Assembly: GCA_963930775.1 (NCBI GenBank)
Contig: OZ005705.1
Location: 5,952,001 to 6,016,000, forward strand
Source: Cliona cf. orientalis
Lineage: Eukaryota; Porifera; Demospongiae; Clionaida; Clionaidae
Direction of reading: 5' to 3'
DNA: 64,000 bases
Part shown: in pieces, positions 14,848 through 40,700 of the stretch
Numbering within the stretch: position 1 is the first letter of the stretch
How the letters are laid out: each line of letters starts with the position of its first letter
Made by a program: the position numbers and the translations under genes
Notes under the pieces: model-generated
The model's database searches: none
The model's input: only the letters and a program-made list of their open reading frames with translations
Told to the model about the DNA's origin: nothing

Positions 14848-15150
14848 GATTGTTCTGACAGCAACAAATTAATTTTACAAGTCTACTCTGTTTACGTTTC
14901 TTGTATACCTGACCGCCGCGCCCGGCCGGCTGGGGTCCTGCTGGTGCGCGCGCCGCGCAAACACCGATGCCCCGCCCACTAAATTCCGCGTGCATGTACA
15001 TGTGGGCATGGCAATGAGAGTTGCGTCAAGGTCAAATTTCCCCGGACGCTTTCGATTTGCTGAGAAGTTGCAGGCAACGTATTGGTGATTATAGCTTTTA
15101 TTAGCGAGTCTAACACTGCTCTTGTCAATCTGTAGCCCACAGGTCAAGGT
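14848..15150. promoter_or_regulatory. Bidirectional promoter region, ILK and ADCK2
   Basis: About 300 bases separate the farthest ILK start and the ADCK2 start. The stretch includes a CpG-rich core (CCGCCGCGCCCGGCCGG near 14911 and GCGCGCGCCGCGC near 14944), unlike the AT-rich surroundings. The genes diverge, so shared promoter use is likely but inferred. Confidence 0.5.
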
Positions 15151-17906
15151 ATGAGGGAGATTCTGGCTGGTAGGCTCCAGTACCTCTCCCACTGCCGAGT
15201 CTGCAATCGTATGAGCGTCCACAGGCTACAATTCTCCACTGCCTTGCGAGCAAAACCATCACAGCTTCTCCTCCAGCGATGCTGTATTCAAACTTTGAAC
15301 CATGGTGAAAGATTGGCAGCTCACCCATTGGTACGTCACGGTGGCTACCACTCACTACCTCGTTTCTTACAGCGGTTTAGACTCAACTTGGGAAGGAAAT
15401 TGTTTCACAGTGGCATCAGACAGCTGATATCGCGATATTTATTCAGATCTCCAACGGCTACCAAGATCACTTTTGCTAGTGGTGGTGGACTACTTTTTGG
15501 TGGGCTGGGAGGATTTTTATTTGTTAACAGGGACCACCGTCAAAGTGAAAATGAGTGCGATTGTGAACGTCAAACGCAAAACAACTGTGGCTCCCCTGAA
15601 CTTTTGCTTGCACGAACGCCAATCAGCGAGCTAAGCCTGATTCAGCAACTAAAACTGGTCGCCCGCTTTCTTTTCCTCTCTCTCCTATTCTCTCCGGCCG
15701 TTGTTCTCTACGCAGTAAGCGTTCTAACTGGGAGCAGGGACGCAGAGGACCTGGCCTGGAGATACGTCTACTTTGCCATACAGTTGGCCGGACCTGCCTT
15801 TATCAAGCTGGGTCAGTGGGCTAGCACACGTAGAGATATATTCAGTGAGGATTTCTGCCGAGCGTTGTCCAAGCTGCACACACGCTGCAGTCCTCATTCA
15901 TGGAGGGCCACCGAGCAGCTGCTCTGTGAGAATTTTGGTGAAGATTGGGAAGAAAAGGTGATACTTCTGGATCACAATGCTATAGGCTCGGGCTGCGTGG
16001 CCCAGGTATACCAAGGATATCTAAGAACTGAACAAAGCAAAAAAGATAAGGCTGAAGAGGATGTTTTGAAAGAAAAGCTGATACCTGAAGGAGAAGTGGG
16101 TTTAAAAGATCTCAGAGAAGCTGCACTGATGGCTGATGGTGGCTACATCCCGATAGCTGTGAAGGTTCTTCACCCAGGAATTGTCGAAGCTATGGATGGA
16201 GATATTCGGCTGATGAAGTACATGGCTAGCTGGATGGACTATGTCTACCCTGATCTGCACTGGATTGCCCTCAAGGAGTGCGTGGAGGAATTTTCAATGG
16301 TTATGCAACAGCAGGTAAGAAGTGTGTGTACTCCCTGGTTGACCTTATCATAACTCACCCTGTAATATTGTGTAATAACTAAGCGTACTGAGACTTGCAG
16401 GTAGATGAGGGTAGTTGAAAGTTACTCAAGCAAACATAATAATAAACTTATCCTTGATGGTATCTGTGATTATCAATTACCTGCAAATTCATGTGTTATT
16501 CACACGCTCCCAGCTTGACCTCAAGCTTGAGGCAAAGAACTTGCTCAAGTTTCAAGACCTCATGAATGGCTATGAGAACATCAAGTTCCCTACACCCATC
16601 ACTCCCTATGTCACCAACTCTGTACTTGTCGAGAGTTTTGAGGTAAAGATTTTTTGCTTCATGGAATATCTCCTAGTCTAGTTAAATTTTTATCCTCATG
16701 GCCACGTATTCTCTGTCTATCCCTTTATCTAGTCTGGAGCACAGATCTCTGAATATCTCAACAATCCAGGTGGGAAGCTTCAGAAGGAGCTGGCCAGAAT
16801 AGGCGTTGAGGTGGTCTTGGATATGGTAGGTTTGGTAAAATTAATAATTTACACTAATAATAATTATTGTGAGTAGCATCCTGATGATGAATTATTCTCT
16901 CACTCTTTCTCTCTCCCTCTCCCCCATCCCCTTCTCTCTTTCTCCCTTCCTCTCTCGCTCTCTGCAGCTTTTTGTTCACAACTTTGTTCACGGTGACCTT
17001 CACCCTGGCAACATCCTTGTTCAAGATCCTAATGTGGACGATCCCAAGATAGTTCTCCTCGACTGTGGCATCGCTACGAGTCTCGGAAAGATAGACCTTG
17101 AGAACTTTCACAGCGTCTTTACGGCCATCGTCAGGGGTGAAGGTGCAAAGGTTGCTGACCTCTTCCTTGGCGTGCAGAAATGTGCCACTGTTGATAAGTA
17201 TCGTCAGGACATGGCTGACCTGGTCGATTATAGCGTAAAGCATCTCAACTTAAGTGAGGTACATGGTGTATGCATAATCATTATTGTACACATTGAGTAG
17301 TTTTTTGTGCACTGATGTTATCAGTAAAATATTATTTGTTTTTCAGACGCAAGTTTCAACTCTCTTTTCAAGAGTATTTGATATCCTCATAGAGCACAAG
17401 GTACAGTACATTAAAAGAAATCTATATACATGACATTGTAACAGTTGATGTGTAGCCTCATCCCCAGGCTCTCCCCCTAGCTCCTCTTTATATTATATGC
17501 GTGATTTTATGCAAAAAATTTATTTGTGTGTATAAAATAAAGCTGGAGACAAGGCTAGTTGACGTGTACAAGAAGGTTTGAACACAATATCCTATAGTCG
17601 ATCATCAATAATTATTTTTCATATTCATGCTAACGTATCATTGTTACTATACAGGTGCGCATTGAGCCCAAGTACACATCAGTGATGGTGGCCATGATGA
17701 TTATCGAGGGACTGGGACGCTCCCTCGATCCGAATCTTGACATTCTGGTGTACGCAAAGCCGTGCGTGCTGAATAGGGCCAAGAGGTACCTGAGAGAGGA
17801 GGTGGGGCGGAGGATAGAGATCGCCACGGAGAGGGTAGAGAGGATGAAGAGAAGCTTGAGCTTGGGGGGAACTGCTGGAGAGACAGACTCAATGTCATAC
17901 CACTAA
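15151..17906 (+). CDS. ADCK2: aarF-domain (UbiB/ABC1 family) protein, ADCK2 type
   Basis: Six exons (15151-16314, 16514-16642, 16733-16825, 16968-17258, 17347-17400, 17655-17906) give 660 residues, close to vertebrate ADCK2. The N-terminus is rich in Arg, Ser and Leu with few acidic residues, as expected for a mitochondrial presequence. Next comes a glycine-rich hydrophobic stretch (GGGLLFGGLGGFLF) and a second hydrophobic segment near residue 170. The family hallmarks follow: AFIKLGQWASTRRDIF (the KxGQ motif of the UbiB extension), GSGCVAQVY (Ala-rich loop position), IAVKVLHPG (nucleotide-binding lysine), FVHNFVHGDLHPGNILV (catalytic loop) and VLLDCGIA (metal-binding DxG). ADCK2 is an inner-membrane protein connected with coenzyme Q and lipid metabolism in mitochondria. 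All key motif residues are present. Confidence 0.93.
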
Positions 17907-18149
17907 GTGAGGCACAGTCTTGCAGTCTAGCGATAACGATAACCATGAACAGAATTTTAATTTATTTTTTTGTACTCTACAGTCAATGCCGCATCATCAT
18001 AATATGCACAGGTGCAGAGTATTATTATGACATTGTTATTGATTATTAATTTATTGTCTCGATTTAGTAGCACCGTTTAAAAAAAAGCAGGAAAATAATT
18101 ATCAGAAAGTGAAACAATCACAACCACAATCATGTTAAAAACACAACCG

Positions 18150-18181
<32 letters not shown>

Positions 18182-18503
18182 GATATACACAAGGCTTTGT
18201 TTAATCGTGTTTATTTTCAATATAGACACCGACAATAGCTGCCACTAATATGACCTATAGTGTGTGTTAGTAGCAAGACCAAAATACATGATTGTATAAA
18301 AATTGTTTATTGCAATTTTCTGGTAAAGGTCGTCACACACCATATTAAGATAGTAAAGTCCCAGAACACAAATTTTCTTGCATAGCATAAACTGTACTCT
18401 CTTTTCAGTGCTGATTGTATTATACAATATTATGGTTTACATAACATGACATTTGTGTACCCGCTAAAAAGAAAACTAATTAGCATTCCCCGGGCTGGAA
18501 AAC
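17907..18503. other. Convergent intergenic stretch with CA microsatellite and recurrent motif
   Basis: No gene is evident between the ADCK2 stop and the stop of the longin protein. It includes a CA run at about 18152-18181 and the recurring TGGTAAAGGTCGTCA motif at 18321-18335. It probably contains both 3' untranslated regions. Confidence 0.6.
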
Positions 18504-21500
18504 CTACCGTACTACACTTACTGTTATGAAGAGTCCAACGATAAGGATCATGATAAGTGCCTTCCAGTGTTGCTGCAGCCACTCACTGCAGTGGCCTCTT
18601 CTAGTCAGGCTACCCATCACAGACTGGAAAGGAAAGGAGCAAAAAAAAAAAAGCATGGACAGCAATGCACATCGTCGAACAGCAATATTATTATTATCAT
18701 ATGTACAGACGTGTATTAGTCTTGTTTCCAGGCACAATAGAAATGAATAGTTGTTACGAAAACTAAAGCTAGAAATGCTATAGGATCTGAGTACAAGGCT
18801 GGACATGTATGTATGTATGCATAAGCCATTGACTTACGTCGTGGCTCATGAAGCTGACATCACTGCTACCTGACTCCAGCAGCTGCAGTCTCTCCACGTC
18901 ACCCTCATCATCAGACAGCTCTGAAAAACAAGAAGTAACATCCAGAAAATAGAGTATTTTTACCCCGCGTGCATGCGCAAGGGGTAAAGTAATTGGTCGT
19001 GTTGTTGTTGTTATCGTTGTCGTTAGCACAAAAATCGCCTTATTTCGAGATATAGGCGTCTAAGCGACTCGTAATCACAAGGAATCAATCGAATTTGGCG
19101 AAAAACTGGCTTCAGTGTGCGTCAAATCGAGGGATACGGTCCACGAACACTACAAATAGCGCCTTTTTGTTGGCCACCGTAGCCATACCTATTGACAGTG
19201 CCCATCAATGCATATGCATACCAATAATATTGTGCTTTCTGCTCATGTGCTAGTCTCGTGCCCAGACCCCACCCCCAAGGGTCTGGGGACGAGACTACTC
19301 ATGCGCACAACTGAGTGGCCAAGTGTATGACTGGTAAAGATCGATCGTCGATGTTCTAAGTCTATAATGACTGCCCTATGTAAAAAGTAAATCTATAGAT
19401 TGCGCTACAGAGCTCTAGTTGAGTATATTTTAGACCTTAGCAGGAAATTGAGCCCAAAGTGGGGAGGTGGGCCGATATTCCATAGTGGACCCTCTCATGA
19501 GGGTATACGATAATTATTATAATGGTCTAATTTTGAGTTGGTCTTGGTGGTCTGTACACAAAGATGGAGTTGTGGGAATGACTCGGGAGAGCAGCTAGTG
19601 TTCACAATGGGTAGTCTTAATTAACTGTTACGGCATCCCCCTTTCACCTTCGTCTGGCTCAGCAGGAGCTTCCCATGCATCAGGGCCTGGCCATACTAAG
19701 TTCTCCACTTGGGCATGAACAGCAATTCAGAGCAACGATCGAGCTAAACTTTTGTAACGTTTGACCATCGCATCATCAATTGAAGTACATCCATCACGAT
19801 GAACAAGCTTTTATTGTTTCTAACAGCTGCAGCTCTGTGTGCTATGGTGACTGGTGCTCCAGGTTTGCCTACGTCTTTTATTATGTAGCTAACCATGCAC
19901 GAGCGGCTTGATTGTATTATTATAGCAGAGACGCCAAGGCATGCTCGCTGGCAGTACAATGTTGAGGTACAAGAAGTAGATGAAGCTCCTTTGAGGAATC
20001 AAGAGTTCATAGGTTTAAAGCAAATTTTAATGTGTTGCCACAGTGAATTTGACATCATTCTGTTTCAGGTTACCAGGAAGAGGCCGCTTTTCTGCAGGGA
20101 AATGCATACACTTTCAAAGTTAAGAGTAACCAGGGAACTGTTGTTTCTATTCCAGCCAAGCTTGTCAATCCATGTACGTTCCAATTGCAAGATGAACTTG
20201 ATTGATGGATACAAGTCTGATACATGCCTGCTCTACAACTTGTACAGCATTCGTCTGTCTAGAATATTATGGAAGTCTACCAATTGGAGGTTGCATACAG
20301 CCTGGAGGTTGTGATACTTGGAGAGACACGGGCATTAAGCTATGCTTTGATGATTATAAATATGTCAGTAAGTACATGTACAGTAATTATTGTGCATATT
20401 GTGCCTACATTTGCAATGCCCATTCATTCTGATATTATAGCTATCCGCTTGATACTTCCAATTTAATTTTCAGGGAAAGTTTGTATAGCAGACTCCCATG
20501 GAATTGGTGTTCAGGCCCAGGCTAAACCTTGTTAATGGTGAGATCTTGTGTCGCTAAATTCGTGCATGGTTATTAATGACCTATGTTATCTCTGATCATA
20601 GAGAAAGTGCAGTGCGGCAAGACTTCTGGAATATTGAGAGTAATTGATGATTAGCTGAGTGCTACAGGAACTTTTCTTGAGTTTTATAATTTTTAGGTCT
20701 ATTTGTAGTTTTTATAATAATTATCTAAATCCATTATTACTAGGGAAATGCATAACATTGTGGGGTGAGCCTGAGCGACATAGGGCTGCAGGAGGCACAT
20801 TTGTAGGCTGGCCTCTGCCGATTTGATGGTAGTCTCACATGCTAATTACAAGTAGCCTAGATTCTCTCTTGTGCTGACTGACTCGGCGACGAGTCCATCA
20901 CGCCTTTGTTGCAAGGATAGCTGCCTCTGTGCCCGAGCCTCGGATCATTACCCCACGTGCATGCGCAAGGGGTAAAGCAATCGGTTTGTCTGTCAGTTGT
21001 TGTCGGTTCTAGGCATCTGTGCGAGCTCTAAGCACAACCAATCGGTAATATCGGTGATAAACTGGTTTATACGCGGTTCGAATTGCTCAAAAAGGCTTAC
21101 TAGTGCTACAAAGTGCATTTTCTGTTCAGCATGCCTGTGGTTTATCGATCGCACCCACTCTTTTAGTATGCTTTTAACACTGCGCATGCTCAAGCTCAAT
21201 GTTGGAAAGGGTCGTCAAGTCATAAAACTGCCGCATAGTGTTGCAATACTACACTACAGTGGCAGAGCGCGCGGGGTATGTGCTCTACAGAGCTCTAGTT
21301 AAATCATGTACAGACTCTCTTTTCTAGTCAAATCACTCTCCCAGGCCCTCCCCAATGTATAATACTTTTTAAGGGAGTGGGGTTGGAAATGGGGCTACTA
21401 TTGACAAGATCAATCATTGTGGACAAAGTGATCAACCAGCATTTCTTACCGAGGTCCCTCACTCCAATGCGCTCTAACCGGACCTGATTCGGCGAAGGCA

Positions 21501-22128
21501 GGAGACTCAGTGCCGTGTCTGTGTAGTACCTCTGCACATTATGTGTGCGTGTGAATGTATGTGTGTTTGTGGGAGCGCGTGTGCCAACATGTCTCAATCT
21601 GGATAATAGTCTTAGTGTAGGGGTCTTTACCATTTCCTTGGCTAGTGCTCCCGAGAATTCACTGTTCATAGCAAATGGCAGTGCACTCGTTATGACATTA
21701 TTGTCAGAGTAGGTCTCAGAGAATCTGCAGCAACAAGAATACAGGTGTACATGTATAATGATTATATTATGCTCTTGGCAGAAAGTATAAAGGCATGGTG
21801 CCAAAATTTGCGAGAAAAGGTTGTAATTTCTCACTTGCGCTTGATTCTATCCAGGAACAGAAACGCCTTTGATCGTTCAAAATCCTACAAAAGTGGACAT
21901 CATGACATAATGGACTTCAAAATGAAGCACCATAGGACTTTAAAAGTTTCAAGTTTTAATGCGATAAACTGTAAACCGTCCCATCACATGTGCTATCAAC
22001 ATGAGAAAACGACTATTTCACTCACGTCGTCTGTGATGCACAAGTAGACTATTCCACCTTCACATATGTAGTGATACATGTACCTGCTCGTGTGTGTGTG
22101 CATACATGATCAGAACAGTGTGTCAGCA

Positions 22129-22159
<31 letters not shown>

Positions 22160-22233
22160 GGGAGGGAGGGAGAGGGAGAGAGAGAGAGGGGGGGAGAGGG
22201 AGAGAGAGGGAGAGGGAGAGAGAGAGAGAGGGG

Positions 22234-22313
<80 letters not shown>

Positions 22314-22319
22314 GAGAGG

Positions 22320-22394
<75 letters not shown>

Positions 22395-22677
22395 CGCACT
22401 CTCCAGCTGCATAAGTCAGCTTTCCATCCGTATCCAGTTCAATGTTCTTGATCACTTGCAGAGCAACCTCACTGAAATTGCCATGACAACAGGCGTAGTG
22501 GGCCAGAATGACATTTCCCCTGGCAATTAAGCTGTAGATGATGCCCAGGGTGTAGGCAGAGACGGAGAGGCCGTCTGCATTGATGGGGGTCAGAGCATTG
22601 GCTCTTGCAGAGCCATTCTGCTGAGTCCGAGTGTGGGACGACATGAAGCAGTTCACCTGCACACCAAACAGTTTCAT
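18504..22677 (-). CDS. VAMP7-like longin-domain, tail-anchored protein lacking a full SNARE motif
   Basis: Seven coding exons on the minus strand (22400-22677, 22026-22083, 21835-21884, 21631-21724, 21450-21531, 18838-18920, 18504-18623) sum to 765 bases, 254 residues. A longin domain is clear: [55 protein letters not shown] and [18 protein letters not shown] align with VAMP7. Upstream is a Ser/Thr/Asn-rich extension; a shorter start at 22644 ([11 protein letters not shown]) is possible. After the longin domain only about 15 residues ([13 protein letters not shown]) recall the start of an R-SNARE helix. An acidic/Ser linker ([17 protein letters not shown]) follows, then a single membrane segment ([14 protein letters not shown]) ending SVVR, typical of a tail-anchored vesicle protein. 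Phases agree across the 2.5-kb intron that would normally have to hold the SNARE exon. It is probably a trafficking factor of late endosome or secretory membranes; the function is inferred. Confidence 0.8.
18961..19424. repeat. Interspersed repeat, copy A, beside the nested secreted gene
   Basis: It begins TACCCCGCGTGCATGCGCAA, continues GGGGTAAAGTAATTGG, and ends near GCTACAGAGCTCTAGTT. The second copy at about 20951-21300 shares both ends, while the interiors are diverged. It includes the small hairpin element at 19251-19297. Confidence 0.55.
19251..19297. mobile_element. Minimal fold-back element, TAGTCTCG termini, 9-bp flanking repeat
   Basis: TAGTCTCGTGCCCAGACCCC is followed almost at once by its inverted copy ending GACGAGACTA. 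The flanks read CTCATGTGC and CTCATGCGC, a 9-bp direct repeat with one mismatch, as expected for a Mutator-like insertion. The termini match the larger elements at 53626-53971 and 54841-55222. Confidence 0.65.
19799..20654 (+). CDS. Small secreted six-cysteine protein nested in the longin-gene intron
   Basis: I do not recognise the family. My model has six exons (19799-19862, 19929-20012, 20069-20173, 20248-20367, 20475-20537, 20602-20654), 489 bases, 162 residues. Every intron has phase 1. The N-terminus is a clear signal peptide ([21 protein letters not shown]). The mature part has a charged region ([13 protein letters not shown]), a hydrophobic/Gly region ([16 protein letters not shown]) and a C-terminal Cys-containing part ([46 protein letters not shown]), six Cys in all, suggesting three disulfides. 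It is transcribed opposite to the host gene. The exon 3-4 junction (73-base intron) and the last exon are the least certain parts; an alternative ends in exon 5. No function is assigned. Confidence 0.65.
20951..21300. repeat. Interspersed repeat, copy B, on the other side of the nested gene
   Basis: It starts TACCCCACGTGCATGCGCAA and ends GCTCTACAGAGCTCTAGTT. It lies in the same orientation as copy A at 18961-19424, so the two flank the nested gene as direct repeats. No open reading frame belongs to it. Confidence 0.55.
22126..22391. repeat. Long GA microsatellite in intron 1 of the longin gene
   Basis: About 265 bases of nearly pure (GA)n with scattered GGGA interruptions sit directly downstream of the exon 1 donor on the minus strand. 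Reading frames through it give artificial Arg-Glu or Ser-Leu polymers. It fills most of the short intron between exons ending at 22400 and starting at 22083. Confidence 0.95.
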
Positions 22678-23111
22678 GACTCACTCTGTTTATAAATCTA
22701 GTTCTTGCTAATACTGGAGAAGTTTCAATACACTATAGTTGAGGTACTAGCTATGCTTTCATCCGAGGAACATAGACGGATAATCTTATGGCTTCAAATA
22801 CTCTTCAAAGATGCTAAACTGAACCCAAACGGCATCACACTACCTGCACACCCCGAAGGCAACAGCTGCTTATCATTCAAAGCCTAAAGCAGCTGATCTT
22901 ACGAACAATTTACCTTGTTCTTACCTGGTTTTCTTTTGTAGGCGGTTGTTCTCCAGTTTTTGCCAAGTCAGCATTTTTTGAGACTAGTTTAAAAGTTAAC
23001 CCCCTCTTGAAACATATAATTAACCCCATTAATACGACATCGTTTGCGTCCACGTGTTTTGGGCTGCGCGCGCGCATGCATAGCTGGAGCCTGGAGCTGG
23101 AGCGAGCATAG
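22678..23111. promoter_or_regulatory. Divergent upstream region, longin gene and POLR1D
   Basis: About 430 bases lie between opposing starts. A short CpG/GC patch (GGGCTGCGCGCGCGCATGCA near 23060) lies close to the POLR1D start; the remainder is AT-rich without recognisable elements. A shared promoter is plausible but not demonstrated. Confidence 0.35.
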
Positions 23112-23986
23112 ATGGATACTCAGAGATTAGAAATAGTAAGTTTTAGTGATAATTATTCCACCTATAAAATTAATCCCTGCGTGCTATTCCCCTAGGTGCC
23201 CCTGGATGACCCCGACGACACGACGTGTATGACCTTTGTACTCAACGGGGAAGACCACACCCTCGGGAACGCACTGCGCTACATTATCATGAAGAAGTAT
23301 GCAGACACCACATGTACCAGTAGTAGCTTTTCATGCTTATCCCTTTCTATTGTTTAATACTTGCATACACACACAGTCCAGATGTAACGTTCTGTGGGTA
23401 CAGCGTCCCACATCCGTCTGAGCGCAAAATTAACCTGAGAGTACAGACTAATGGTATGCATATGAAGCACCGTACTAGTATCAGTTTTCACAAAACAATT
23501 ATGGTCTGATGTCCCTAATTGAGTAGCCAATTAAAATCTAAAGGAGGAGAGATGTAGTAGATTTGGAATAATTATTGATCTTGTATTCAATTGAGTGAAC
23601 CTCAAACCCACTTTGTACGAGTAGTGTCAATAGAACCCATAATATGACATTGTATATCTTTCGATTGATACATTGACATTATGTCATGTATAATAATATT
23701 ATTATTAGGCATACCAGCAGTTGAAGCATTACAGAAGGGCCTTACTGATCTACAAGAGCTGTTTGAACACGTACTGCACACATTCAAGGTAAGTGGGAAA
23801 AAGTCTTCTGAAGTGTGTATCAAGAATCACGCATGTTATCATGAGTTTTGTAGTTATTGCTTTGACACAGGCTGTGTACACAGTGAAACTGGATTTGGGA
23901 TTCTCACTTGTCTTTTTTATCTTCAGGGTAGTGTTGATAACTTCAGACAACATGAACAGCTATTGACCTCTTCCCAAGAAGAATGA
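23112..23986 (+). CDS. POLR1D: RNA polymerases I and III subunit AC19 (RPAC2)
   Basis: Five exons (23112-23135, 23196-23296, 23377-23453, 23709-23788, 23927-23986) give 113 residues, a little under the human protein length. The sequence is a single RpoA/Rpb11-like dimerisation fold: [20 protein letters not shown] is the alpha-like motif, [20 protein letters not shown] the conserved strand pair, and [21 protein letters not shown] the C-terminal helix. AC19 pairs with AC40 (POLR1C) to form the assembly platform of RNA polymerases I and III in the nucleus. The first exon encodes only eight residues before a phase-0 intron. Nothing is missing. Confidence 0.95.
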
Positions 23987-24258
23987 TTGTCACTATGTAC
24001 CCAGCTATAATACACAAGCTACGCACCTGAACGTAACGAAAATTTTAATGATGCACTATAATAATTATTATACACACTAAACGACGTGTTTACAATACAT
24101 TTGTTTATTATTGTGGTAAAAAACAATAACAGAAATGTTAAGATAATCCTGTAACAGATTGATTTCAGTATTATTATAGAATCCGATACTCACACAATGT
24201 CATGACATTGTACACACACACACTGCACATAATATATACATACACGCATGTACAAAAC

Positions 24259-27200
24259 CTAGCAGCTGGGTGTGGGTAAAGGTTTTCTTCTGTCAACAGT
24301 TGGAGGAAGGAGTGGCTTAGGTTTGCCAGGGGGTGCTGGAGGCTTCGAGGCACCATTTCTAGTTCTCACTGCTCTACTACTTCCACTAGGAAGTTGACTG
24401 TTGTAACTGTCACCACTACTACTACTGTTGAAAGACCTTCCCAAACTTGTTGAATTGGTGAAATTTGTCCTAGATGACGCCAGATTTGTGGTTCCTACGG
24501 CAGGCTTTGGAGTGAGAGCGGGAGGTTTGGGGTGTGACGTAGGATACTGACCTGTGCCAGGCTTCTTTGATACTTGAGGCTTTACTGGTAGGTGTGGGGG
24601 TGACTTTGGCTGAATTGCTGGTTTTGCAGCCACAGGTGGTTTGATGGGCGGTCTAGGTTTTGTCGTCGCGCTTGAAGAGGACGAGGAGGAGGAGCTGGGG
24701 GTAGCAGTTTCTGCTGGCCTTTTTATGTTATGTAGAGGTGGGCGATTTCCTATGCTTGCTGGCAGATTCGTCTCATAGCTTTCGATAAATTTCTTTTTTG
24801 ACGTCTTCATCCCAATATCGGCAGGTAGCTTAGTCTCGTAGCTAGGCCTTGTGCCTCCTCCGAGTGTAGATGCCTGGTTCTTTGTAGGAACTAGAGGCTT
24901 TGCTGCTCTGTTACTCTTCTTAGCAGTTTGCGGTAGAGTATTTGGAACGGAGGGTGGACCTTGACCAAACGTAAACGGCTCAAAAACATGATCCGACTTA
25001 GCAGAAGCTGGTGAGGATAGACTATCAGGACTTATTGACCTTTGCTTCGGAGGAGGTTTTGGCTTCTTGGACTGATTTGTTACAGCTACGGAGGAAGAGG
25101 GTGAGGAGTCGAATTGTCTAGGACCCCTCTGAGGTAGAGGGGGTGCATTATCACCAGATATTGGTGATGATGGATAAGGTGGGGAGGACAGGGGGAGCGA
25201 TCGAGGGGGTAGAGGGATGGCATTATCTGGTGGTGATCGCCCCCTAGAGGAGGAGGAGGGGGGATTGGAGTCACCAGCGACGGCTGCTCTGTGCTTATCA
25301 GATGCATGTGGGTGTCTGCGAGGAACTGGTGGAGCTTCATCATCATCATCACTAATGCCGTCAACTACTGCTCCCGGGAGGGGCATAGGTGGACGCTCGT
25401 TCCCACGTCTTGGTATGGCGGGAGGTGCATTGGTTCCAGCAGAGGAGGCTACAGGTGGGCGAACAAACACTGGTGGCCTTCCACCACCATCACTACTACT
25501 AGCGGGGATCTTTGGAGGAGATTGATGAATTGGATTACCAGCTGACGAATGTGAAGGTAAAGGAAGAGGAGGTCTCCTTAGGAATTCTTCTCGTTTGAGC
25601 GTGTTTGGCCCCTTCCCAGCAGCTCTTCTTTCCGGTGAAATGTGCTCGAGATATGCTGCAGGGCTGTCGTCATCTTCGTGGGGTTGACAGTCTACATACT
25701 CGTCGTCACTGCTGTTTATAGGACCGGCACAATTCCCCTGCATTGCTCGATCGTTCAACAAACTATCGTCAGAAGCTGTGAAGGGAACTTCCTCGTACGC
25801 TTCTTGGTCGTGTCCCCAGCTCCTAGGCCTGTTCTTCTCGGCGGGAGTATCGCCGTAAAGCTCCTGTCTTTTTTCCTGAAGCTTTTTGCCAAATTTTGGG
25901 TCATTCTTGAGATTAAACCCCACACCTCTTGTTCCAGTTGCTGTCCCGTGTCCACTTCTCCCTCCTCCCAGGAGTTCTGATGAATTTGTATTCAACAGAT
26001 CGTCACTGCTTCCAGATTTCCATGGTTTGGCTGGAGGGGCAGGTGGCTTGGTCTTGACCTTATGCTTAGGCGTTCGAGGAGAATTTTTGAGCGAACCGAA
26101 ATGCTTCTTGTGTTTTTGTGCGGGGCTATCGACTGTTGGCTTATTGGAGTGAACTCCTTGTTTGGGCATTTTTGTTGTTGCCGCTGCTGCTGCCGCTCTC
26201 CATTCATCAACCTGGACAAACTCTGAACTCTGATTAAACGATCGTGTGTAGCGTCTAACAGGATGGCTCGGGGGTAAGGGGGGAGGCTGCAAACCTTCGT
26301 CTTGTTTCCAGACGGGCGGTGGGAACTTGTTTAAGTCACGTATTGCATTAGCCTCGTCTATGTTGTCATACACCTCTTCAAAGCTGTCTTCAAACTTGGT
26401 GGGTGGGGCTTTGTTCATGAACACCTGTGGGTCTTCGTAGAACACTTCCTCGATCATGGGGGGTGGTGACGGAGATACCGATGGCCTCTTGGGGGGCGGG
26501 AGGGGTGGGCGGAGTGTCGGCTTGTTGAAGGTCTGAGACGCAGTGAGTGAGTCTTCAACTTCGGGACATAAATTTGCTTCTTCAACTATAAACATGATTG
26601 TATCGGTATGTATGCAAATGTTTGAGTAGGTGTAAGATCACTTTGCAATGTGAAAACTATCAATTAGAGTAACGCACACACACACAAATGCTTACTCGGG
26701 TTGTATACAAGCAGCCCTTGCTCGTGTAGTATGCATACTCAATAATATTTTTGTGGCACTTGGCTAAGTAGCAGAATATCTAGCTGGGTGCTTATTTGGG
26801 GTACACAACAATATAGAGGCTCTGTCAATGTGGTTGGTAGTCTATTGGGAGTTCAGAACACAATACACACACACTAGGAGAGTTGGTTTATGGTGATGAT
26901 AATCTATGAATGAGCCTGTTGTGTACTATTCCTATGCACACAGCGGGATTAAATCAAAAACTTTTGACTATCAATCTTGTAAGCAATCGTCTATCTGACT
27001 TTATAGATCAAAATTAATACGAATAGTTCTTATACACCATACTACTATTATTATCATGGTGGTGGGGGGGGGGGGATAGAGGGGGAGGGAAGTATTGTTA
27101 CACATGAAATTCTATCTTATCGCATAACATACAAACAGGAAATGCATAATATTACTCCAAACTTATGCACCTGCAGAGAATCCGCACACACTGGCCAGAC

Positions 27201-37725: not shown

Positions 37726-40700
37726 CTAACTGGTGTTCGGCGTCATGTATAGAATCTGTCGTTGCGGGACCCCCTGAGATTGGACAATGGGGATGACCTG
37801 GGGGGCGCCAGTGGTAGTGGCCGTCGCTTGTCCCAGCATCACCGTGGGGACCTGGGTGGGTAGTACAGCTGTCTGGTGATGACGGTGGTGGCCGTGGCCG
37901 CCATGATGACCCGTTGGACCTGGGGCCGGGGGGCTCTGTAGTATCGTAGTAGGCATAGAGCCGGTCAGTAGGATCTGTTGTCCACTGCTGCTAGTAGCAC
38001 TGGCCATGGCCATCTTTGAGCCTCTCACCATGGGAGAGTGTGAGGACGACGACAACAAAGGCGAATGAGAAGTGATCAAGGGCTGTGATGATTTGACTGT
38101 GAGTGGTGGAGCTATGGTGGCAGCAGCTGCTATGCTTGATGCGGCCACTGCACTATTTCCACACGTTGGAGGCCAGCTGCTTGTCACTATGGTGACCTTA
38201 GAGGGTGACATCTTAGTTGGACTTCCACCACCACCAACAGAGCCCAGAATAGCAGCAGCTGCTACTGCAGAATCATTTGGTAGGGTTGTACCATTTGGAG
38301 ATGGAGTGGGTTTTCTCTCTTGCTTTTCATTTTTGTCCACAACCTGTGCCTGTACTTGCTGTTGCTGTTGCTGCTGCTTCATTTGCAGCTGAGCCACCTC
38401 CTGTTGGGCTTGCAGTTGTGCCTGCTGAGACTGAAACAACTGCTGCTGGAGTTGAGCTATCTGTTGTCTAAGCTGCTCCTCCAGATCTGCTTCACTTTTT
38501 GGAACGTTAACACTCACAGCAGCTGCAGCCGCTGCCTGGCCTGGACGGCTCTGCTGCTCAGCTCTTCCATCACTAACTGCCTGCTGCAGCAATTGAATGG
38601 GAGGCAGTGGCAGTTGTTTTTGCAGCAAATTCTGTTGCTGCTGCAATTTTGTGATGGTATTCTGTGGATGTGGCGAGACGGTTATGATGTCCCTACTGGC
38701 AGTGTTTGCAATTCCAGGTGTCGGTAGTAGCATGAGCACTTGTTGCTGTTGCTGCTGCTGCTGCTGTTGTTGTTGATGAGTGACAGCAGCTGCTCCCTGA
38801 GAAAGCAGTGGGGAGGAACCTGGAGCTAAGAAGCTTAGAGACTGTGGAATGGAGGATGGAACACCGGGAATCTGAACCAGTGGTACTTGAATCAATTGAG
38901 GCTGTTGCTGCTGTTGCTGCTGCTGTGCAGCTGCCACACTTATCGGTGGACCAGTTAGACTCCCAGAAGTTGAGGTGAGAACAGGAGGAGAGGGAAGAGT
39001 CTGTATCAACTGTCCATTGCAGTTGATGGACACTATGCCTGGGTGGATGAATCGGGGACCTGGGGTAGTGGGAGTGATGGGACTCGTACTAGAACCTGAT
39101 GATGCTGATCTCTTTCTGGAGCCACCCCGAGATGATCCGTTGGTCAGTCCCGTACCGTCTTCATGTTCCTGCCTCTCCTTCAGCTTGTGTGTGTACTTGA
39201 TGTGTTTTCGCATCGAGCTAGGATCCGTGTAGCTCTTTCCACAGCCGGGATACTTGCAGACGTACGGCTTTCTCGTGATGTGCGTCTTCATGTGTTTCGC
39301 ACGGTCGCTCGTGTTGTTGAACTTCTTTGTGCAGCCCTCGTAGTGACACTCGTAGGGCTTTTCCCCCGTATGCGTGCGAACGTGCAGCTTGAGATTCTCC
39401 AGGCGGGAGAAGGAGCGAGTGCACGTGGGATACTCGCACCTGTACGGTTTCTCTCCCGTGTGGCAGCGGAGGTGTGTGATGAGCTTATAGCGAGCATCGA
39501 ATGGCTTCCTGCTTCTTGCACAGTCCTTCCATTGGCAGACATACTTGTCCATGGCCAAGGTATGATCTCGGTCCAAGTGCCCCACGAGTGACTCGAGTTG
39601 TGGAAACTCCTGGTTGCAGTTCTCCCAGCAACAGACGAACGGTCCACTGTCGTCCATTTCTTCCTCGGTGAGGGGAGAGGCCGCAGTGGGGGAGACAGCT
39701 GTCGCATGAAGGAGAAGGGCTGGACTCCTTGGGTCTGCCACCAGGAGGCCCTGCTGGAACAGAGACTGCTGCTGGGTAGCTGAGATACTCGAGGTGGGGG
39801 AGGTGGCAGAGAGGCTGGCTATTGGTGAGAGGGAGGAGCACGAGTCGGTTGTGGATGGGGAAGAGGAAGAGACTGTGTGGTTTTCAAGTCCAACTTGAGT
39901 GAAGCTCGAGTACTTTGCTGCAGCAATTCCCCCACCCCCACCAGCAGCTGCACCGTTTGGACTCTGCAGATTCACATTGCCATTCTGTAGGATAGATAGA
40001 CTCATCTTAAACACTCGCATCTAGAACTCTCTCTTACTATTACTATAATAGTATAATAGTCACTCTACAGTGCTTCAGCTAGCTACGGGCTGCAGCACAT
40101 TAATTTGCAGAATTTTCAAAATTGCAGCTGCAACCAGAAACTGCAGTGCAGCACCACCGCAGAGCTACATGTAGTCCCCGTAACGATGCATGGGGCGTAC
40201 ATGCGTCGCACGTACATACATTCAGTACGGGTATGCTCGCTCACGATCACACACCGTGGTTGACGACTGCAAAAAAGCACACTGTGGGCATTTGGTAGAA
40301 ACTTTAGACAAACAGTGCAGCGCACACACACTTAAATAACTCACACTTGCACTCCTGCACTACACACTAGTATATTGAGGCGCTTATGTCGCAGCGAGGT
40401 GCTTTAAAACACTGTGTGCTAGCTAGTGCAAAAGTGAAACCTTCCCCAAAGAGGAAGGCGCTCAACCACGGTAGAAACAACACGAAAACCCAACCTGCAG
40501 TTTGTGTATATAACAAAGTGTTTATTTTTGGGTTTTTGCCCGTACTGTTCTGCATGACACTGTCAGTATACCATATAGCGAAGTGTGTAACCCATATATA
40601 ACTGCGAGTTCACAGTAAAAGCTGACAATAAAAGCTGATGTTGTAAACACAGAGAATTTCTAGGAATCGAGATCGCTTTCTCGATCAGTGTAAAAATTGG

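Follow-up and report, generated by a model that had tools for sequence, protein, structure and literature searches.

Gene Structure at the Locus

A window of 64,000 nucleotides from the sponge Cliona cf. orientalis (contig OZ005705.1, positions 5,952,001 to 6,016,000) was analyzed, and window coordinates below refer to it. A gene for a VAMP7-like longin protein was recognized on its minus strand. Seven exons between 22677 and 18504 are spliced into a single frame of 765 nucleotides encoding 254 residues, and all six introns have GT-AG borders. The protein consists of a longin domain (residues 44-160), a 76-residue region with no working SNARE motif, and a C-terminal membrane anchor. The features of the gene are as follows.

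22400..22677, minus strand: exon 1, encoding an extension at the N-terminus (residues 1-43 as modelled) and the first part of the longin domain; ends in phase 2
22026..22083, minus strand: exon 2, longin domain
21835..21884, minus strand: exon 3, longin domain
21631..21724, minus strand: exon 4, end of the longin domain; terminates at the position of VAMP7 L114 in phase 0, like human exon 4
21450..21531, minus strand: exon 5, corresponding to exon 5 of VAMP7 and carrying the N-terminal half of what was once the SNARE motif; stops at VAMP7 position I144 in phase 1
21450..21480, minus strand: best surviving SNARE remnant, within exon 5, overlapping the VAMP7 fold-back segment
18921..21449, minus strand: intron 5, 2529 bp, of which 90% recurs at other places in the genome; a SNARE exon was not found in it
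18838..18920, minus strand: exon 6, corresponding to exon 6 of VAMP7, with the zero-layer region and the ERLQLL remnant; ends in phase 0
18504..18623, minus strand: exon 7, corresponding to exon 7 of VAMP7, starting with SV; anchor and stop codon
18560-18510, minus strand: transmembrane anchor, 17 residues, in exon 7
18306..18311, minus strand: AATAAA polyadenylation-like signal about 193 nt past the stop codon, the nearest of four in 17901-18504

The frame is open, and neither a disabled frame nor a disabled splice site was found. The start codon is uncertain and may be M1 (22677), M12 (22644), or a codon in an upstream exon; the N-terminal extension relative to VAMP7 is about 32-43 residues in the present model. 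The 17 hydrophobic residues of the anchor have a mean hydropathy of 2.99. A consensus GTAAGT donor lies within exon 7, and thus the last residues and the true C-terminus of the protein are uncertain. Of four pyrimidine-rich acceptors listed within 17900-18503, none gives a hydrophobic phase-0 continuation past exon 7, and the one at 18463, if used, would lead to a shorter anchor ending with RVHKCHVM. The original prediction, made from the letters of the window, had described these seven exons read in one frame, a VAMP7-grade longin domain, and a C-terminal anchor, all of which are borne out. Intron 1 is mostly a long GA-rich microsatellite (about 22120-22391).

The Longin Domain and Its Adaptor Groove

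The longin domain is of the VAMP7 type. Longin was the sole Pfam match of the whole protein at E <= 10 (2.7e-21), and the best match in the PDB was VAMP7 (6.8e-39), the next family being Sec22b (1.4e-7). In the alignment with mouse VAMP7, 60 of the 113 aligned residues are identical (53%), and the DDFER motif is kept.

In mammals, the groove of the VAMP7 longin domain is reported to bind AP-3 delta and Hrb, and the SNARE helix of VAMP7 itself occludes this groove until VAMP7 enters a SNARE complex (PMC3549491, PMC2648964). Six of the nine AP-3 groove residues named in PMC3549491 are identical in the window longin, and the other three are I, V, and Y in place of L, I, and F. The VAMP7-like gene on contig C2, described below, keeps just three of the nine. 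VARP is described in PMC10743575 as binding the closed longin-plus-helix form of VAMP7, not the longin alone; therefore, VARP should bind the window protein only with a working latch.

Loss of the R-SNARE Motif

The tail of the protein was compared with R-SNARE motifs in several ways. Pfam PF00957 (Synaptobrevin) was not matched at E <= 10 by the whole protein or by the tail alone; the tail alone gave just a sub-threshold match to DUF5056 (E 0.09). In the same scan, the single-exon VAMP7-like gene matched PF00957 with 1.6e-26. An R-SNARE hidden Markov model (HMM) was built from seven motifs, six from this genome and one from mouse VAMP7. Its best score in the six frames of window 16000-24500 was 2.5 bits, with nothing above, while ten R-SNARE exons of control loci, nine of them among the training sequences, scored 22-60 bits. 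With leave-one-out HMMs of the same seven motifs, the held-out motif scored 31-80 bits and the window tail -1.3 to -3.4.

The positions of the R-SNARE layers were assumed to follow the synaptobrevin register. The layer hydrophobicity of the tail in its best register is 0.59, a value equalled by 2688/5000 shuffles; the controls were 1.99 for VAMP7 (64/5000 shuffles) and 2.28 for the C2 protein (0/5000). In the alignment, the zero-layer R150 is replaced by E, the -1 layer V by S, the +6 layer F by G, and the +7/+8 layers by R/H. Two residues are inserted beside the zero layer, and most of the hydrophobic layers are gone. The tail therefore has neither the heptad layers nor the zero-layer Arg of an R-SNARE, and the absence of a working SNARE motif, proposed in the original prediction, is upheld by Pfam, HMM, and hold-out tests alike.

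The former SNARE part shares 18/71 residues with VAMP7, distributed unevenly as 0/14 at VAMP7 residues 115-130, 7/15 at 131-146, 6/21 at 147-167, and 5/21 at 168-188. The best-matching 16-residue segment corresponds to VAMP7 135-150 (equalled by 92/3000 shuffles; best of 12 segments, uncorrected). Two remnants of the SNARE helix are alignable, the piece in exon 5 and ERLQLL in the acidic and serine-rich exon 6. The stretch of about 15 SNARE-like residues noticed earlier is thus present, but it is not the sole remnant. The similarity of the tail to the C2 protein is not significant (1135/5000 and 1478/5000 shuffles).

I139, M140, and I144 are reported as determinants of the fold-back of the SNARE helix onto the longin domain in VAMP7 (PMC2648964). 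In the window protein, I139 is kept, M140 is replaced by G, and I144 by L. The best-kept SNARE piece overlaps the longin latch, though with a modest signal and without one of the determinants.

Exon Layout Compared with Mammalian VAMP7

In the global alignment, the introns after residues 160, 187, and 215 of the window protein correspond to VAMP7 L114, I144, and S167, and their phases are 0, 1, and 0. The mammalian junctions used here were deduced from published lengths and isoforms, not from an aligned mammalian gene sequence. The length of VAMP7a, which we take to be 220 residues, entered this deduction. VAMP7 exons 1-4 are reported to encode 114 residues, and skipping of exon 6 to yield VAMP7b, with 116 new residues and 40 residues longer than VAMP7a (PMC3123573, PMC10743575). 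It follows from these lengths that 144 residues are shared. Skipping of exon 5 or exon 6 singly is described as shifting the frame and skipping of both as preserving it, and the expected product from exon 4 to exon 7 in rat drops from 263 to 104 bp without exons 5 and 6 (PMC3123573, PMC10743575). Exons 5 and 6 thus total 159 nt in rat, as against 165 nt in the window gene (82 nt plus 83 nt), and the phase classes agree.

The window gene accordingly has the VAMP7 layout, with introns at L114, I144, and S167 in phases 0, non-zero, and 0. The L114 and I144 junctions match within alignable sequence; for the junction of exons 6 and 7, just the phase and the summed exon length are independent of the alignment. 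The distance from the longin domain to the anchor is 76 residues, compared with about 74 in VAMP7. Since collinear exons of near-equal length occupy the positions of VAMP7 exons 5-7, the SNARE exons appear to be still in place, the helix having apparently decayed in situ with no exon lost. The idea that a SNARE exon was lost within the 2.5-kb intron, raised earlier as part of the main competing explanation, is not supported by this layout.

Intron 5 and Integrity of the Locus

Intron 5 is composed largely of repeated sequence, with 2284 of its 2529 bases (90%) matching other places in the genome. Parts of it resemble contig C19: 19404-20779 with 86% identity and 20780-20926 with 78%. In a genome self-search of the region, in which 40 of 4957 candidates were scored, dispersed repeats near the two ends of the intron gave more than 20 and more than 12 long matches. 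Among the same scored candidates, 18400-21700 was matched over its full length only by itself. A lost SNARE exon inside the intron was rejected, as the HMM finds none and 90% of the sequence is repeated. Misassembly is unsupported; a single contig carries the whole locus without a break, its exons in order.

The dispersed repeats lie at 18956-19250 and 20944-21301, have many genomic copies, and both carry the near palindrome TTACCCC(G/A)CGTGCATGCGCAAGGGGTAA. A small gene-like exon chain is nested in the intron on the opposite strand (about 19799-20535, plus strand). It has a signal-peptide-like start, read by eye, and an 86% identical copy at C19:2980657-2982047.

Other SNARE Genes and AP-3 in the Genome

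A genome-wide search with PF00957 gave ten matches, none of them on contig C17 (25/25 candidates scored). One is a complete single-exon gene with a longin domain and an R-SNARE motif at C2:20007-20675, whose best PDB match is VAMP7 (2.4e-26). The original prediction had proposed looking for a full VAMP7 elsewhere in the genome, and this gene is a full VAMP7-like R-SNARE. Its longin domain is less VAMP7-like than that of the window protein (38/109 residues identical to mouse VAMP7). This genome therefore contains two VAMP7-like genes, the window locus and the C2 gene; the latter is a possible retrogene, either an old retrocopy of the window locus or derived from another paralogue. Other PF00957 matches were recognized by inspection as Ykt6 (C12) and short brevins (C8 and C9), and one on C5 lies in a 427-residue frame to which no family name was attached. 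Sec22 (C9) was detected through its longin domain.

No second intron-bearing VAMP7 was found with the window protein as a query (eight matches: the seven window exons and C2) or with mouse VAMP7 (five matches: C2, three window exons, and a brevin-like C8 exon with no longin seen upstream), although isolated short exons from a divergent copy could escape such searches. Several short-brevin SNARE exons lie together at C8:5153000-5409000, among them one at L026:9304-9444 (22 bits with the HMM) that Pfam did not list.

AP-3 delta (PF06375) is present in two copies with near-identical exons about 18 kb apart (C8:928469-947167), which reflect either a recent duplication in tandem or one introduced by the assembly. 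The delta linker exon reads KIPVQKLELGIGL in both copies, and KIPVQKLELGIGL is compatible with the AP-3 delta spacing of I702, V704, L709, and L713. Wnt-family matches at three loci indicate an animal genome, and the small number of Wnts together with a compact, intron-rich genome (217 Mb) is suggestive of a sponge. As expected, no relative was found in a scan of prokaryote contigs or in a scan of viral contigs.

A Proposed Dedicated Non-SNARE Longin at a VAMP7-Like Locus

By sequence comparison, the window locus is the gene best matching VAMP7 in this genome, with the targeting domain, the anchor, and the exon layout kept. The unusual point is that a separate locus with a VAMP7-like exon layout has a non-SNARE protein as its sole readable product. 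The longin domain is intact, as are the splice sites, but the SNARE part is 18/71 identical; decay this uneven speaks for selection acting on the longin. We give about an even chance to the interpretation that the intron-bearing VAMP7 locus now encodes a dedicated membrane-anchored non-SNARE longin, acting through its groove as a sorting regulator or competitor. A role as a regulator or decoy of SNARE assembly is plausible.

The protein would sit, anchored through its tail, in the membrane of endosomes or late endosomes, with its longin groove available for sorting partners, for example AP-3 delta or an Hrb-like adaptor. It would not be expected to form a SNARE complex. The groove could be always open, in which case the protein would compete with SNARE longins for adaptors or provide a fusion-free link between adaptor and membrane, or it could be gated solely by the fold-back remnant in exon 5. 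Fusion would be left to the C2 protein, the VAMP7-like R-SNARE encoded by a single exon. We infer in this way the expression, topology, binding, gating, and competition of the window longin. A further proposal is tentative, and we hold it with more doubt than confidence: in this animal lineage the ancestral intron-bearing VAMP7 locus may have been turned residue by residue, without exon loss, into a dedicated self-gated longin that retains the groove and, of the SNARE helix, just the latch, while an intronless VAMP7-like copy took over fusion, which would make it an animal gene-level counterpart of the phytolongins of plants, independently reached.

Several points weigh against this interpretation. 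The protein is predicted from a gene model. Its exons were also picked for their open tail, which weakens the argument from a tail of 94 stop-free codons (209/20000 shuffles are also stop-free), and the codon-usage score is without power, being equalled by null stretches in 1782/5000 cases for the longin and 1624/5000 for the tail. The tail retains a weak similarity to VAMP7, equalled by 64/5000 shuffles in local and 134/5000 in global alignment. As M140, one of three determinants of the fold-back, is replaced by Gly, the latch may not work. The S167/S168 match between exons 6 and 7 falls where conservation is poor and hinges on where gaps are placed. The delta linker exon was not matched to PDB 4afi by phmmer, so that its identity rests on Pfam PF06375 and the spacing, and the linker may serve the C2 longin instead. 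The non-SNARE form was seen in this one animal genome.

If the tail were a mere spacer, the product would still be a selected non-SNARE longin, with no competition for AP-3 or Hrb and no latch, working with other longin partners. Most of the tail is unalignable and rich in acidic residues and serine, the fold-back segment lacks M140, and docking models of human VAMP7j are reported to have preferred LRRK1 to VARP (PMC10743575). The groove for AP-3 delta and Hrb is nevertheless kept and delta retains a matching spacing, and we regard such a spacer as rather unlikely. The locus might instead be a decaying VAMP7 pseudogene superseded by the C2 gene, to which we assign a small probability. Unselected decay would have struck the longin and the SNARE part alike, whereas the former keeps 53% identity to mouse VAMP7, DDFER, the groove, and all six GT-AG introns beside a SNARE part at 18/71, and the 94-codon tail has no stop. 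The eroded SNARE region and the presence of a full longin R-SNARE elsewhere would suit a pseudogene, as would a codon usage that does not flag the exons as coding, in a test without power.

Two other explanations would retain a SNARE function at the locus. A hidden alternative exon could restore a normal VAMP7, the form read here being a minor isoform like human VAMP7j; human VAMP7 does yield non-SNARE isoforms through exon skipping, and the longin is as well kept as that of a working VAMP7 would be. This is very unlikely, as the exons read here already take up the places of human exons 5-7, 90% of intron 5 is repeated sequence, the six-frame HMM scores do not exceed 2.5 bits across window 16000-24500, and none of the ten genome-wide PF00957 matches (25/25 candidates scored) lies on C17. 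It is scarcely probable, and the least so of the explanations weighed here, that exons 5-7 encode a divergent but functional R-SNARE whose non-canonical helix enters SNARE complexes. The near-equal distance from longin to anchor (76 and about 74 residues) and the weak collinear similarity (64/5000 shuffles) could be read in that way, but layer hydrophobicity resembles that of shuffled sequence (2688/5000, against 64/5000 for VAMP7 and 0/5000 for C2), the hold-out HMMs score the tail at -1.3 to -3.4 bits, and the substitutions include Glu for the zero-layer Arg, Ser for Val at -1, Gly for Phe at +6, and Arg/His at +7/+8.

Comparison with Known Systems

The window protein resembles VAMP7 (TI-VAMP) in its 53% longin identity, the deduced positions and phases of the tail introns, the anchor, and the groove residues. 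It differs in lacking heptad layers, in having Glu at the zero-layer Arg, and in its N-terminal extension.

Human VAMP7j is reported to be a membrane-anchored longin without a SNARE motif, produced from the VAMP7 gene (PMC3123573, PMC10743575). The window protein, as a gene model, is likewise an anchored longin without a SNARE motif from a VAMP7-type gene. In VAMP7j, exons 5 and 6 are skipped in a gene that also makes full VAMP7, while in the window gene these exons are present but decayed, at a separate locus. VAMP7b (cf. VAMP7i), which retains the N-terminal part of the SNARE motif, is a partial parallel to the exon 5 remnant. The earlier statement that no animal counterpart derived from VAMP7 was widely described does not hold, since human splice isoforms such as VAMP7j are already published. 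No VAMP7-derived non-SNARE animal gene was found among the titles and abstract openings listed in searches of an open-licence library, which is weak evidence of absence from print.

Phytolongins are described as a longin domain followed by a non-SNARE region of 60-90 residues and a transmembrane domain (PMC2779197). They are reported to be derived from VAMP72 and specific to land plants, with an unconserved zero-layer Arg and more SNARE character in the N-terminal than in the C-terminal half (PMC2779197, PMC4861013). The window protein shares this layout, as had been suggested from its sequence; both derive from a VAMP7-type R-SNARE, and its 76-residue region falls within the 60-90 residues. 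The window gene is neither of VAMP72 nor of land-plant origin, as the genome has Wnt loci and the longin is closest to animal VAMP7 among PDB entries. From the published description of phytolongins, not from their sequences, we infer an independent origin.

Mammalian Sec22a and Sec22c are reported to be dedicated genes for non-SNARE longins (PMC2779197). They resemble the window gene in being dedicated animal genes, but they are derived from Sec22, not from VAMP7, and belong to the early secretory pathway. In the papers cited, the case for a longin function independent of the attached SNARE is argued from splice isoforms, from paralogues of Sec22, and from genes of plants. If the window gene does encode a dedicated non-SNARE longin, it would suggest that membrane-anchored non-SNARE longins arose from VAMP7-type genes twice, independently. 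The longin and SNARE functions would then have been separated by natural selection at a VAMP7 locus, and adaptor binding and competition could be assayed cleanly on this protein.

Neighbouring Genes

The longin gene is flanked by two genes on the plus strand. An ABC1-type kinase gene (15136-17906) converges on it, and a gene for an RPAC2-like RNA polymerase subunit (about 23112-23986) is divergent, starting about 435 bp from its 5' end. Farther away, a 764-residue frame on the minus strand (37729-40020) contains several C2H2 zinc fingers and may be GLI/ZIC-like.

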